From a virus: a stretch of 39,845 bases of DNA. The stretch is from positions 1 to 39,845 of the IMG/VR virus record IMGVR_UViG_3300032288_002108. One strand, given 5' to 3'. The notes under the pieces are model-generated. The model ran no database searches. It saw only the letters and a list, made by a program, of their open reading frames with translations, and was not told the DNA's origin. The translations under genes and the position numbers were made by a program. Below are positions 3,393 to 35,914 of the stretch, piece after piece (the first letter of the stretch is position 1; the number at the start of each line of letters is the position of its first letter).

Positions 3393-3602
3393 CTAGATGA
3401 ACAGAAGAACGAGGATCAGGGCGACAAGCAGCAACCCGCCGACGATGGAGGAGACGCGCTCATGGAATTGAGCTACTGTAGCGACTTTCTCACAACGCAG
3501 CCGCCGCTGGCGAGGACTGTTGTATTGTTGATACGCCATGAAGCGGGCCGAAAACTCGGCGGTGCGGTCAATCACGCGGTCGTTTGGATGGACAAGTTTC
3601 AT
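3393..3602 (-). CDS. Small C-terminally anchored membrane protein, 69 aa
   Basis: I start at ATG 3602, four bases after the upstream stop; the longer frame overlaps that gene and is Pro/Ser-rich shadow. The last 20 residues (SSIVGGLLLVALILVLLFI) form one transmembrane segment ending at the C-terminus, with an Arg-rich soluble part before it. Tail-anchored topology is inferred. Function unknown. Confidence 0.65.
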   Translation of the reverse strand: MKLVHPNDRVIDRTAEFSARFMAYQQYNSPRQRRLRCEKVATVAQFHERVSSIVGGLLLVALILVLLFI

Positions 3603-32668: not shown

Positions 32669-32803
32669 TTATTTTTTTCTGAGGCCTAAAAAGAGCCGCA
32701 TCTGCTCCTGCGCCTGCCTGGGCGGCATCGGGCGGCGTTCACCGGCCTGGACGGCACGGCAGTGGGCGAAGATGGCGGAAAGGGATTGTTCGGTTCGGCT
32801 CAT
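32669..32803 (-). CDS. 44-aa protein after the helicase
   Basis: ATG 32803 overlaps the helicase stop as ATGA. MSRTEQSLSAIFAHCRAVQA then GERRPMPPRQAQEQMRLFLG and LRKK. Basic, partly helical. Its TAA is inside the A/T-rich stretch upstream of the next promoter. Function unknown; support is the exact junction and a clean frame. Confidence 0.6.
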   Translation of the reverse strand: MSRTEQSLSAIFAHCRAVQAGERRPMPPRQAQEQMRLFLGLRKK

Positions 32804-34200
32804 ATCTGGTCTGTCCAGTCGTCGTTCGTTGATATTTCGCGCATTGTGAACTTCGCGCCGTTGAAAAACATGGGGATTTTGGAGCCAGCGGCAAAGCCAC
32901 GGGCAAGCTCAATGATAAGATTTCGGCGGGTATGATCCACCTCGGGCTGGCTTTCGGAACTAAAACGAGCCTTTTTCTTCTCAGGAATCCAGTGTGCAAC
33001 CTTTAGCCATGCTTCGCAATCCATTGCAGGTGAACGACTTTCGCGAATTTGTCCGTCCTCGTTCTCCTGGGCGACAGCGATCAACGCCACCCCATAACGC
33101 TTCGTTGCCTCGTAAAGGGAGAGGCTGATATGGGCAATCTCCCTTTCCCGGCTTTCCCATCGTTGGCGGGAACGAACTTTGCCGATGAGATCGACAATAA
33201 ACAGCTCAAACCCTCGATCTGCCTCGGCGCGGATGTCCGCAACGATGTCCTCAACGTATCGACCTGCCGAATTGTCCAGCTTCACCAACTTCCCGATGGA
33301 GCGCTTAAGCTCCATGACAGCCCGCCCGTATTCCTCCTGCTGGCGGCGGTCAATAATGCCCTTTCGCTCAATCGAGCCATCAATGTGCTCGGCAGCCATG
33401 GCAAGAATTCGCCCTGCGTAGGTTCGACGCTGGACCTCGTTTGTGTAGATTTTAACCCGATGGCCGGAACGGGCGGCATGGTCGGCAATATTGCCGGTCA
33501 GGACGGATTTGCCCGACTTAGTGGGGCCGGTCACGAGCCAGTATTCATCCTTGCCTATGCCTCCGCTTTGGGTGTCGAGCGTTGGAATGCCTGTCTTGAT
33601 GAGCGGATCATGCCCTGACTGAATGCGCTCGGTAAGCGCCTGCATGTGATCAACGTGCTCGTCGAGGCAGTCAGCCAAAAAGGCAGTTGTCCCCGCTGTG
33701 GTGGCGATGGTGTCAAAAAAGGTCTGCACAATCGTGGAAGCGGCTGCAATCGTCGTTCCTATGCCGTCATCTGGCCCATGCTCATAAACCGCTTTCAGCC
33801 CTCGGGCAAGTCCCTCGATGGCCCGCCGCTGGCGATACTTGGCCTCAACAGTCTCGATGTGAAACCGGAAATGGGCCGGAGCCGTCATGGCCATCCCAAG
33901 TTCTGTCACCTTCATCACACCCCCAGCATCGTCCAACATCTTCGTTTCGCGAAGTCTAGAAGTCAGGGTAATGGCGTCAATGGGGATGTCCTGCTCCTCC
34001 ATCGTGAACAGTTCCCTCATCATGGTTCGAGCATTCAGGGTATAGAACGCTTCCAGGGGCAACCGAAGGCGAGCGAGCCCGATTTGCTGCGGGTTGAAAA
34101 GGATGCCGGACACAATCCCTTCCTCCGCCTCCACGGAATGCGGCATGGGCTGGTTGAGACTAGGCAGGATTTCCTCAACGGTTGGTTCTTTTGGTTTCAT
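32800..34200 (-). CDS. DnaB-type replicative helicase
   Basis: 466 aa. N-terminal DnaB helical domain (LPHSVEAEEGIVSGILF-like start, about 20-120), then the RecA-type core with Walker A GPTKSGKS (215-222) and Walker B FELFIVDLIG (D327), and VALIAVAQENEDGQIRESRS, the helicase H4-like region. Unwinds the fork 5' to 3' as a hexamer. It directly follows the initiator gene, which probably loads it. Confidence 0.92.
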   Translation of the reverse strand: MKPKEPTVEEILPSLNQPMPHSVEAEEGIVSGILFNPQQIGLARLRLPLEAFYTLNARTMMRELFTMEEQDIPIDAITLTSRLRETKMLDDAGGVMKVTELGMAMTAPAHFRFHIETVEAKYRQRRAIEGLARGLKAVYEHGPDDGIGTTIAAASTIVQTFFDTIATTAGTTAFLADCLDEHVDHMQALTERIQSGHDPLIKTGIPTLDTQSGGIGKDEYWLVTGPTKSGKSVLTGNIADHAARSGHRVKIYTNEVQRRTYAGRILAMAAEHIDGSIERKGIIDRRQQEEYGRAVMELKRSIGKLVKLDNSAGRYVEDIVADIRAEADRGFELFIVDLIGKVRSRQRWESREREIAHISLSLYEATKRYGVALIAVAQENEDGQIRESRSPAMDCEAWLKVAHWIPEKKKARFSSESQPEVDHTRRNLIIELARGFAAGSKIPMFFNGAKFTMREISTNDDWTDQI

Positions 34201-34206
34201 GGCCGA

Positions 34207-35175
34207 TTACTTCTTTGGGGGCTGATAGGTGACGTGGTAGGCGACGATGCGTCCCCAAAAATCGCAGAAGGACGCAAGCTCGCCCGTCTGCCGAACGCAT
34301 TTATCAGCGTGGCGATCATTGGCGGCAACTTCCCAGCACCATCGCAAGCCGCTTTCCCATTCCGTTAGAGTGATTTCAGGAAAGGAGTTCAGCAGACCTG
34401 AAAGTGCCACAGCGTCACCAGCCTTTTCAGGATAGCTTGAACTTGTGAACTCTTCATAAATCTGCCGAAAACGTTGGGCAAATTCCTCTACGCGTGGATT
34501 TTGGAAAAAGTCCTGGGTTGATTCCGGCTCGCGTAATCCCTGCCACCCCTTTGTAATCGTGTGGTTAATCATGGCTATAGCTCGTCGCTCTCCAATCGCC
34601 TCCAGTTCTTCAAGCTGCTTGCGCAGCTGTGTCGGCTTGAGCGGTCTTTTGATTTCCTTCCTATGGCTGATCCAGTCTTGCCAAGACTTGGCAAATTCTG
34701 CCGAGTCAAACGGAAGGCTGAAAGCCTCCTCCTTGTTCCCTTCCCTTCCTTGTTCCCTTCCCTTCCCTTCCGCTTTGCCCGCGTGGTCGTCGCGTGGCTC
34801 ACGCGTGCCGCACGCGTCAAATGTCTCTGTTTGAACGCATTGCGAAGGATCAGGCAAATCTGACTCTCTTTCGCGGTTGTTAATGACTTGGTGCCTTGAA
34901 AAGGTCGGTATGCACCCGAAAACACCCGTGGATGACGCGTATTTCACAATGAATCCACGCGTGGTCAACGCGTCAAGCACGCGTGAAAAGTCGGCGTCAT
35001 CGTATGGCAAAATCTGAATTCCAAGTCGGCGAGGCTCCCACTTGAAACGTCCGGCCTTATCGGCTGCACACCACAATCCAGCATACGCCAAACGTAACGG
35101 AAGTTTCGTTTCACGCTCTGCGTTAAATAGCCCTTCGTGAAGAAAGAACTCGGGTTTAATTGTTCTGATTCTCAT
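34207..35175 (-). CDS. Replication initiator / organiser protein with origin inside the gene
   Basis: 322 aa. The N-terminus, RIRTIKPEFFLHEGLFNAERETKLPLRLAYAGLWCAADKAGRFKWEPRRLGIQILPYDDADFSRVLDAL, is a winged-helix type common to phage O-like initiators. A charged low-complexity linker (GKAEGKGREQGREGNKEE) leads to a helical C-terminal domain that could bind the helicase. The linker DNA holds iterons and a pyrimidine tract, as lambda O carries its origin. Start overlaps the HNH stop (ATGA). Confidence 0.82.
   Translation of the reverse strand: MRIRTIKPEFFLHEGLFNAERETKLPLRLAYAGLWCAADKAGRFKWEPRRLGIQILPYDDADFSRVLDALTTRGFIVKYASSTGVFGCIPTFSRHQVINNRERESDLPDPSQCVQTETFDACGTREPRDDHAGKAEGKGREQGREGNKEEAFSLPFDSAEFAKSWQDWISHRKEIKRPLKPTQLRKQLEELEAIGERRAIAMINHTITKGWQGLREPESTQDFFQNPRVEEFAQRFRQIYEEFTSSSYPEKAGDAVALSGLLNSFPEITLTEWESGLRWCWEVAANDRHADKCVRQTGELASFCDFWGRIVAYHVTYQPPKK
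34727..34771. repeat. Pyrimidine tract of TTCCC repeats
   Basis: On plus, TTCCCTTCC units repeat with only a few interrupting G bases; CCTTGTTCCCTTCCCTTC occurs as two near-identical copies. It lies directly beside the first iteron array and could melt or form a triplex. Confidence 0.65.
34779..34822. repeat. Iteron array 1 of putative replication origin
   Basis: Four 11-bp units start at 34779, 34790, 34801 and 34812 with cores CCGCGT, TCGCGT, ACGCGT and ACGCGT. The 11-bp period is not a multiple of three, so protein repetition cannot explain it; it places sites on one face of the helix. Confidence 0.75.
34924..34989. repeat. Iteron array 2 of putative replication origin
   Basis: Six 11-bp registers start at 34924, 34935, 34946, 34957, 34968 and 34979; cores are ACCCGT, ACGCGT, a degenerate ACAATG, then ACGCGT three times. 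A single further ACGCGTGG is at 34490. Same period and core as array 1. Confidence 0.75.
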
Positions 35176-35639
35176 TCGATGTCGTGATATTTAAGTTGTT
35201 CTGACTGCAAGATTCCCATGATTAGTCCAATCAAATCCAAGGTGGATGATTCAAGCTCTGCCAAATCTTGCTGCTGTGCCTCGCTAGACCTCATTTTTTG
35301 TAACGTATCGTTCCAATGAGCCAGAGTTGGCAGAAGCTGCAATGACTGCTTTGAGCACAGCAGCTCGTAAAACAGTGAACACTCAGAGGCTGACTGCGCT
35401 GAATGGATCCCAAAGCGGACTTTCAGTAACTCCAACTTCTCATGGCAAGGCTCGCAAACCGTCACTAATGCATGATCTGGATAATCCCATGGATTCTTCC
35501 ACTTCTCGTAATAGGCATGATGAACGTGAAGGGTTTTGCCTTCTGCTGCACAGTGAGTGCATTTCCATTCATCACGCTCAAGAATCTTGAGTCTCTTCTT
35601 CTGCCATCTCGGGTCTTTAAGTCTTTGGGCGTAGGTCAT
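35172..35639 (-). CDS. HNH-type zinc-binding protein
   Basis: 155 aa. RWQKKRLKILERDEWKCTHC (C27, C30), LHVHHAYYEKWKNPWDYPDHAL (H38, H40, H41) and VCEPCHEKLE (C62, C65) form the treble-clef HNH pattern of a common phage family. The HNH nuclease triad is partly present, so it may nick DNA or only bind it. The C-terminal half is helical and unlike typical HNH proteins. It begins just after an attenuator-like RNA. Confidence 0.8.
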   Translation of the reverse strand: MTYAQRLKDPRWQKKRLKILERDEWKCTHCAAEGKTLHVHHAYYEKWKNPWDYPDHALVTVCEPCHEKLELLKVRFGIHSAQSASECSLFYELLCSKQSLQLLPTLAHWNDTLQKMRSSEAQQQDLAELESSTLDLIGLIMGILQSEQLKYHDIE

Positions 35640-35731
35640 GACAACAAAAATCCCTCAACTCTGCCCGCCGCGTGAACCCCGCGACATGACGGCACGACAG
35701 GCAGAATTGAAGGATTAATGTTTGATTTCAT
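35636..35731 (-). CDS. Possible 31-aa leader ORF through the hairpin
   Basis: ATG 35731 to a TGA overlapping the HNH ATG (ATGA). Product KSNINPSILPVVPSCRGV then HAAGRVEGFLLS. The whole 24-bp hairpin lies in this frame, and its ATG is inside the segment complementary to the hairpin loop. Translation would open the hairpin. A frame this short can arise by chance. Confidence 0.35.
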   Translation of the reverse strand: MKSNINPSILPVVPSCRGVHAAGRVEGFLLS

Positions 35732-35755
35732 GTCGATTAATGACCGCAGGGGTTC
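35641..35755 (-). ncRNA. Attenuator-like RNA leader of the replication genes
   Basis: On the transcript, bases 35716-35693 pair with 35672-35649 over 24 consecutive positions (19 Watson-Crick, 5 G-U), followed by UUUUUGUUGU just before the HNH ATG. The 20-base loop holds UCAUGUCG and GGGGUUC, complementary to CGACAUGA (35735-35728) and GAACCCC (35755-35749) upstream. All five wobbles are G-U on this strand and A-C on the other, favouring function in minus-strand RNA. Confidence 0.7.
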
Positions 35756-35789
35756 AATCCTGGCACCCGGTCAAGGCAAAGAATATCAT
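35754..35789 (-). CDS. Possible 11-codon leader peptide
   Basis: MIFFALTGCQD; its ATG overlaps the stop of the 42-aa zinc gene (ATGA) and its TGA overlaps the first bases of the upstream pairing segment GAACCCC. A ribosome ending here would cover that segment. Too short to support as a product; listed as a possible control element. Confidence 0.3.
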   Translation of the reverse strand: MIFFALTGCQD

Positions 35790-35914
35790 TTCTTCACCTC
35801 ATGTCCATTGATTTTCTCAGTCTTGCGACACTTGGGGCAGGGCTTCCGCAGGCCGGTTCCGGCGTTGACAAGGATCGAGCCCATGCCGAGGCAGTGTTTG
35901 CATGTTGGTTTCAT
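35786..35914 (-). CDS. 42-aa zinc-knuckle protein
   Basis: ATG 35914 overlaps the previous stop as ATGA. MKPTCKHCLGMGSILVNAGT then GLRKPCPKCRKTEK: two CxxC pairs 21 residues apart, a rubredoxin-like or DnaJ-type zinc knuckle common in short phage proteins. Probably binds zinc; partner unknown. Confidence 0.75.
   Translation of the reverse strand: MKPTCKHCLGMGSILVNAGTGLRKPCPKCRKTEKINGHEVKK

Follow-up and report, generated by a model that had tools for sequence, protein, structure and literature searches.

In the a1b1-C4, seqA-CI and IsrK systems, leader segments complementary to a structured RNA segment control read-through or a small ORF (PMC4825925; PMC2864571). The C4 antisense RNA of phages P1 and P7 (RF01695) and the c4-a1b1 motif upstream of it have both been named (PMC2864571), and in the CI system of phage P4 transcription terminates prematurely in the leader of the replication genes, a segment of which is complementary to an upstream segment (PMC4825925). 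A primary untranslated transcript is processed to give the P4 CI RNA, whose pairing partners are seqA and seqC, while C4 controls the antirepressor (icd-ant) operon. The C4 mechanism is reportedly the one that Citron and Schuster described in 1990. In the RepY-RepZ leader of IncI and IncB plasmids, translation is activated by pairing, and an antisense RNA made from the opposite strand acts as the regulator.

Here we analyse a leader in IMGVR_UViG_3300032288_002108, a 39,845-nt (39.8-kb) IMG/VR phage record, the whole of which is referred to below as the window. The leader resembles C4 in that two short segments (a and b) are complementary to segments a′ and b′ of a structured RNA that belongs to the same transcript, two loop segments thus being matched by two upstream leader segments, and in being a phage regulator that would control the start of a small ORF. 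It differs from C4 in that a′ and b′ are located within or adjacent to the tip of a predicted intrinsic terminator, in having no covariance-model match, and in its downstream genes, which encode HNH proteins, initiators, DnaB or primase. With P4 CI it shares the position in a leader of replication genes and the complementarity to an upstream segment; however, the complementary loop here belongs to the terminator, and an integrase is mostly not found. IsrK of Gifsy-1 is similar as a short RNA with alternative structures that ends at a terminator, beyond which read-through enters an upstream ORF coupled to the gene that follows, but its pairing partner lies downstream in orf45, the short RNA activates, and the target genes are others. 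The leader ORF coupled to an initiator gene, the loop-loop or pseudoknot pairing and the control of replication recall RepY-RepZ, from which the locus differs in the central place of a predicted intrinsic terminator. As in the trp and his leader-peptide attenuators, a terminator is set against an alternative pairing and leader translation is involved; unlike in these, the ORF crosses the terminator and the peptide sequence is not kept.

No Rfam family matched the window region or the loci of 16 relatives. RF01695 gave no match up to E 5 in the window region and none at the gathering score in the 16 relatives, and no IsrK model match was found in either set. Matches below the Rfam cut-off (microRNA precursors on the long hairpin and one lncRNA elsewhere) were rejected as due to chance. 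Literature searches, whose coverage stopped short of subscription journals and preprints, found no description of the leader.

Results

The window carries podovirus-like genes (head-tail connector, terminase, tail proteins, RecT and DnaB helicase). Its replication operon lies on the minus strand and comprises an HNH protein (35172..35639, ATG at 35639-35637; PHROG HNH endonuclease, best E 2e-14), a replication initiator (34207..35175; PHROG replication initiation protein, E 3e-39) and a DnaB-like helicase (32800..34200; Pfam DnaB_C, E 5e-19; PHROG DnaB-like, E 2e-49).

Directly before the HNH gene, the minus-strand RNA contains a hairpin, T1, of 24 consecutive pairs without a mismatch (5′ arm, 35693..35716; 20-nt loop, 35692-35673; 3′ arm, 35649..35672; all minus strand). 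Nineteen pairs are Watson-Crick and five are G-U, with the U on the 5′ arm of the minus transcript in all five. The U-rich tract AUUUUUGUUGUC (35640..35651, minus strand) follows, its first three bases being the last of the 3′ arm, and the stem ends 9 nt upstream of the HNH ATG. A stable hairpin and then a U-tract is the form of an intrinsic (Rho-independent) terminator. A sequence-only reading of this DNA had already described the uninterrupted 24-bp hairpin, its five G-U pairs on the minus transcript and the U-tract before the HNH, initiator and helicase genes, and the sequence bears out all three. T1 is the longest uninterrupted stem in the window, compared with 15 bp on the plus strand and 13-18 bp in 25 dinucleotide-Markov shuffles, and the folding z was -4.16 for the minus RNA versus -1.69 for the plus RNA. 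T1 was absent from a strict terminator scan because its 20-nt loop exceeds the 3-8 nt that the scan permits.

Two features that the sequence-only reading lacked are a second hairpin, P1, which displays one of the complementary segments, and a promoter-like sequence just before it. P1 (35741..35773, minus strand), recognized from the sequence and by a detector, pairs UGACCG with CGGUCA and has an inner CAGG/CCUG stem closing an 8-nt loop, AUUGAACC. Promoters were called by consensus alone. In the window, a sigma-70-like promoter (TGGACA, 16 nt, TG-extended TATTCT, that is TGGACA-16-TGnTATTCT; 35780..35807, minus strand) has a -10 element that ends 6 bases upstream of P1, and the RNA is therefore predicted to start at P1. 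A similarly placed promoter-like sequence occurs in two related leaders (L090 and L148) and a weaker one in L089, and 20 of 20 leaders of a Bacteroidetes-like kind have TATATT[TC]G or TAGATTTG 100-112 nt upstream of the ATG. The inner hairpin of P1 (35747-35762, minus strand) resembles a tRNA T-arm; a tRNA or att-site origin was considered and rejected, as ARAGORN found zero tRNAs in the window.

The 15 loop bases said earlier to be complementary to two upstream segments do fall into two segments, but they number 8 + 8. Segment a, CGACAUGA (35728..35735), which contains the AUG of a leader ORF, is complementary to a′, UCAUGUCG (35682..35689), and segment b, UGAACCCC (35749..35756), mostly within the P1 loop, to b′, GGGGUUCA (35673..35680); all are on the minus strand, a′ and b′ are in the T1 loop, and the order is nested, b a ... 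a′ b′. None of 200 shufflings of the T1 loop matched this complementarity (p 0.005). Across loci, a contiguous-helix score of at least 17 was reached by 75% of matched versus 32% of swapped-locus pairs, and a two-helix score of at least 30 by 63% versus 24%. Contiguous helices with swapped-locus controls were informative in this way; complementarity scored by energy alone (duplexfold with bulges) was of no use for loops rich in G+C.

Nested folding of the growing window RNA gave b:b′ a probability of 0.92 once b′ had emerged and T1 a probability of 0.98 once its 3′ arm was complete; a:a′, at 0.01, was not predicted to form. The folding of L150, L230, L213 and L234 resembled that of the window, and that of the HNH-initiator type described below was weaker. 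With a T1 of 24 bp, a 20-nt loop and an 11-nt linker, simple geometry suggests that full a/b pairing (16 bp) and full T1 would be mutually exclusive in the window, while b:b′ alone could kiss the formed T1. The two competing states proposed earlier thus gain support in their order, the upstream pairing coming first and T1 later; that they exclude each other we infer from geometry and modelled folding.

Relatives were gathered from IMG/VR through the HNH, initiator and helicase proteins and through leader DNA. The window type comprises 13 distinct leaders (the window, L304-L309, L312-L316 and L230), nine of which, 89% identical, form alignment A8; the window, L309/L315 and L230 are too diverged at P1 and were left out of it. 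The HNH-initiator type (A1) comprises 25 distinct leaders, and two further types (A5, 11 leaders; A6, 8 leaders) are presumably Bacteroidetes-like, as their TATATTTG promoter-like box recalls Bacteroidetes promoters. All four groups have a common plan of P1, linker, T1, U-tract and the ATG of the next gene. In each of them the P1 loop finds its complement in an apical segment of T1, and compensatory changes occur. In every aligned group T1 is succeeded by a U-rich tract, the two lying directly upstream of the start codon, and the distance from the end of T1 to the ATG is about 9-15 nt.

In A1, 22 of 36 pairs showed double-sided changes with 94.8% of cells paired, and the covariation score was 0.448, compared with 0.194 in shuffles and 0.06-0.17 in slid controls, figures to be read with the caveat that the scored structures were drawn from the same sequences and that related sequences are not independent events. 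Double changes affected five of seven b:b′ pairs and six of seven a:a′ pairs in A1. They were found in 13 of 23 pairs in A5 (b:b′, 5/7, 100% paired), where P1 and the T1 tip each form a hairpin and the two 7-nt loops are fully complementary, and in 11 of 26 pairs in A6 (b:b′, 5/7). The closely related A8 leaders had double changes in 5 of 41 pairs, with one change in b:b′ (UUGGAAC/GUUCCAA to UUGAACC/GGUUCAA in L314) and an a:a′ that is invariant and hence uninformative. The P1 stems covary in the leader groups other than that of the window. The T1 stems of the window, L309/L315 and L230 differ from one another yet remain largely paired; beside the 19 Watson-Crick and 5 G-U pairs of the window, L150 has 17 and 4, and L230 has 16 and 2 with two mismatches. 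Stem T1 and the loop pairs thus covary in A1, A5, A6 and A8, so that the loop-to-upstream pairing first noticed in the window is kept in its relatives. In L305, on the same contig as L089, the b:b′ combination is mismatched; this locus (3432-3563, minus strand) joins the P1 loop of one window-type variant to the T1 loop of another and is possibly recombinant. Judged from these comparisons, the structure of the leader is close to certain, and the relatives indicate that the RNA is functional.

On the sense strand, the non-Watson-Crick cells of A1, A5 and A6 comprised 65 G-U versus 15 A-C, an excess that points to RNA of the operon transcript. The sequence-only reading had likewise placed an RNA rather than a DNA structure on the minus transcript, a view that the terminator-like form, the position before the replication operon and the covariation in relatives uphold; its main alternative, a single-strand replication or priming structure, is made unlikely by this G-U polarity. 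More broadly, an element acting at the DNA level (a cruciform, single-strand origin or priming structure) would suit a location at the head of replication genes, and inverted repeats in RNA are also inverted repeats in DNA. Nevertheless, folding is far better for the minus than for the plus RNA, and the U-tract, promoter-like sequence and reading frame are all positioned for a transcript, which together with the G-U excess makes such an element highly improbable.

The leader sequences of the four groups could not be aligned to one another and share no sequence. Model R1 recovered the leaders of its own type together with L142 and L143; its matches to other leader types were weak (L160, E 0.011), and sequence therefore does not link the groups. 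No riboswitch-like conserved aptamer core was found among the four groups. This bears on the idea that a phage protein or metabolite binds the kissing-loop fold and decides read-through. Such antitermination would explain why a tertiary-type pairing is conserved and would supply the different input that groups without a leader ORF require, but a shared pocket or binding site should have left a primary-sequence core common to the groups, and we regard this explanation as distinctly improbable.

A leader ORF of 31 codons, MKSNINPSILPVVPSCRGVHAAGRVEGFLLS (35636..35731, minus strand), has a stop that overlaps the HNH ATG as ATGA. It starts inside segment a and crosses the hairpin, as the sequence-only reading had it, but it stops at the ATGA rather than running in frame into HNH. 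In the window type this ORF, 31-36 codons long, begins after P1 and before T1 and stays open across T1 in 13 of 13 leaders, compared with 1/13 and 2/13 for the other two frames; in most members its stop forms an ATGA overlap with the start of the next gene. A 1-nt deletion in L307 and L316 alters the last ~15 residues, yet the end of the ORF remains next to the ATG. L230 (655-800) has its leader ORF and HNH joined in a single frame, which would place the T1 hairpin inside coding sequence. The leader ORF of the HNH-initiator type is open in 41 of 42 cases (other frames, 10/42 and 31/42), and despite internal frameshifts its stop lies 6 nt upstream of the ATG in most. Since reading frame and stop position are kept despite frameshifts, the conserved trait seems, as far as sequences can tell, to be ribosome passage through T1 to the next start rather than the peptide. 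The leader peptides differ between groups and contain no run of regulatory codons.

No clear Shine-Dalgarno sequence was seen at the leader AUG of the window, and the Bacteroidetes-like groups have no conserved leader ORF. These leaders keep the P1/T1 loop pairing all the same, which indicates that translation is not a universal input. The earlier proposal that leader translation sets the state therefore holds in part: the conserved openness of the 31-codon ORF through the hairpin agrees with it, but an 11-codon ORF included in the proposal (35754..35789, minus strand) lacks support. The latter does stop on segment b, its UGA occupying the first three bases, as had been noted. No counterpart was recognised in the relatives inspected, the close relative L162 having none, and a role for it was rejected for this lack of comparative support. 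Its start overlaps, as ATGA, the end of a gene for a 42-aa zinc-ribbon-like (CxxC...CxxC) protein (35786-35914, minus strand), which has a 95% identical counterpart in L162 and no PHROG match.

The reading frames also bear on a RepY-RepZ-like switch of translation only, in which T1 fails to terminate effectively in the host, the leader start is concealed by the structure, and translational coupling through the leader ORF governs the operon. The overlapping or abutting leader stop and next ATG, and the position of a:a′ over or beside the leader AUG, are what such a switch would need; it leaves the U-tract present in all groups and the groups lacking the ORF unexplained, and we consider it rather unlikely.

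The loop segments differ in variability. In A1, a/a′ is the most variable class (0.41 vs 0.22-0.31 elsewhere), b/b′ at 0.27 is no more variable than the rest, and 17 combinations of b and a types occur among the 25 leaders. These data are relevant to a trans-acting antisense switch with the logic of C4/CI or of plasmid copy control, in which b′ and a′ of the terminated RNA would pair with b and a of new transcripts and promote termination or block leader translation. The loop sequence would set specificity, and a build-up of genome copies or of a resident relative would damp the replication genes. Promoter, 5′ hairpin and terminator amount to a complete small-RNA gene, the loop segments vary, most of all a/a′ and in many combinations, while their pairing is kept, and the placement before an initiator is that seen in plasmid copy control and P4 (PMC4825925). 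However, both partners are present on each RNA and could pair internally, and b/b′ does not stand out in variability. Moreover, no tyrosine integrase was found in the window and an integrase was present in just 1 of 23 relatives' contigs (mostly incomplete), so lysogenic immunity is not indicated. We give a trans-acting switch a small but appreciable chance.

The detector was written ad hoc for a hairpin whose loop complements the loop of a terminator. The window leader ranked first across 3.1 Mb (both strands counted). At a score of at least 50 the detector picked out 27 of 96 non-redundant HNH or initiator starts, against no more than 4 among the 584 starts of other ORFs at these loci, which indicates that the leader is common, though not universal, before HNH and initiator genes. 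The gene after a window-type leader varies and may encode HNH, the same initiator, a DUF1376/primosomal-like protein, an O-like initiator, an HNH protein of another family, methyltransferases or small unknown proteins; initiator, DnaB or primase-helicase genes follow in most cases where the contig is long enough. The same leader design therefore heads replication operons with non-homologous first genes. No such leader was seen at chromosomal homologues of the initiator, and cultured phages gave no DNA match. In four protein-relative regions from cultured phages the relevant gene begins within about 20 nt of the one before it, which leaves no space for a leader. The phage L162 has a helicase 96% identical to that of the window, while its HNH-initiator module and leader sequence are both exchanged; leader and initiator module have apparently been swapped jointly. 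The L162 leader retains hairpin P1, the terminator and a loop complementarity, UGCACCC/GGGUGCA, which alone is not significant. Its region 700-2000 thus combines another initiator module with another leader of unchanged architecture.

Discussion

Taken together, the sequence comparisons establish for this leader a conserved and covarying sense-strand structure, a conserved open frame with start/stop coupling, and a position ahead of the replication operon. Attenuation at the leader is likely, and the leader is very probably a real switch for the start of replication. The form of it that we favour, with moderate confidence, is a conditional terminator (attenuator) of the replication operon whose ON state is aided by leader translation. 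Promoter use, termination, the sign of the loop pairing and translation as an input are what we infer in the following scheme.

The leader RNA would begin at the promoter immediately upstream of P1 and by default end at T1, about 9-15 nt before the first replication gene. As there is scarcely room for a promoter between T1 and the ATG, the operon very probably needs read-through of T1. The apical segments of T1 (b′, plus a′ where present) would meet b and a while the 3′ arm of T1 is still to be transcribed, and T1 would be delayed by this pairing, which in the subfamily of the window would also cover the start codon of the ~31-codon leader ORF. In the ON state, a ribosome would load on the leader start before a′ and b′ emerge, keep a open, enter T1 and reach the HNH start by stop-start coupling. 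In the OFF state, T1 would be completed and a short RNA of about 130 nt released. The groups without a leader ORF would require an input of a different kind, perhaps the loop pairing as such, whether in cis or in trans.

It is known that intrinsic terminators can be suppressed by ribosomes (PMC5021804; PMC4824070). Terminators within the first 100 bp of a coding region can nevertheless function efficiently (PMC4824070), which argues against strong suppression at T1. The P1 and T1 loops of A5 look able to kiss with T1 formed, and the pairing may thus not oppose T1. The Bacteroidetes-like leaders without an ORF, the lack of a clear Shine-Dalgarno sequence, the weak a:a′ pairing and the L305/L089 mismatch also count against an attenuator.

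The leader appears to be unnamed so far. A bolder reading, which we offer tentatively and think improbable as a whole, is that it represents a widespread undescribed class of phage leader RNA that senses genome dose or a co-infecting relative, the variable loops of the terminated RNA pairing with nascent leaders and shutting off the replication operon. If true, phages that lack evident lysogeny genes would possess an RNA-based control of copy number and incompatibility.

Little is understood about how an uncultivated phage decides to begin replicating. One RNA design, diverged loops included, precedes operons with unrelated initiators in phages of apparently distant hosts, which suggests that phage replication has a common RNA checkpoint, open to testing and recognizable by its signature. 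The loop pairs might also be put to use as natural orthogonal parts in the RNA control of transcription. Leader-like detector matches of the same design lie before MNELALFAGAGGG... in L096/L108 and before MKLTIDPEFKALIPPLAPEELAQLE in L092/L136, and the gene after the match in L096/L108 resembles a DNA methyltransferase.
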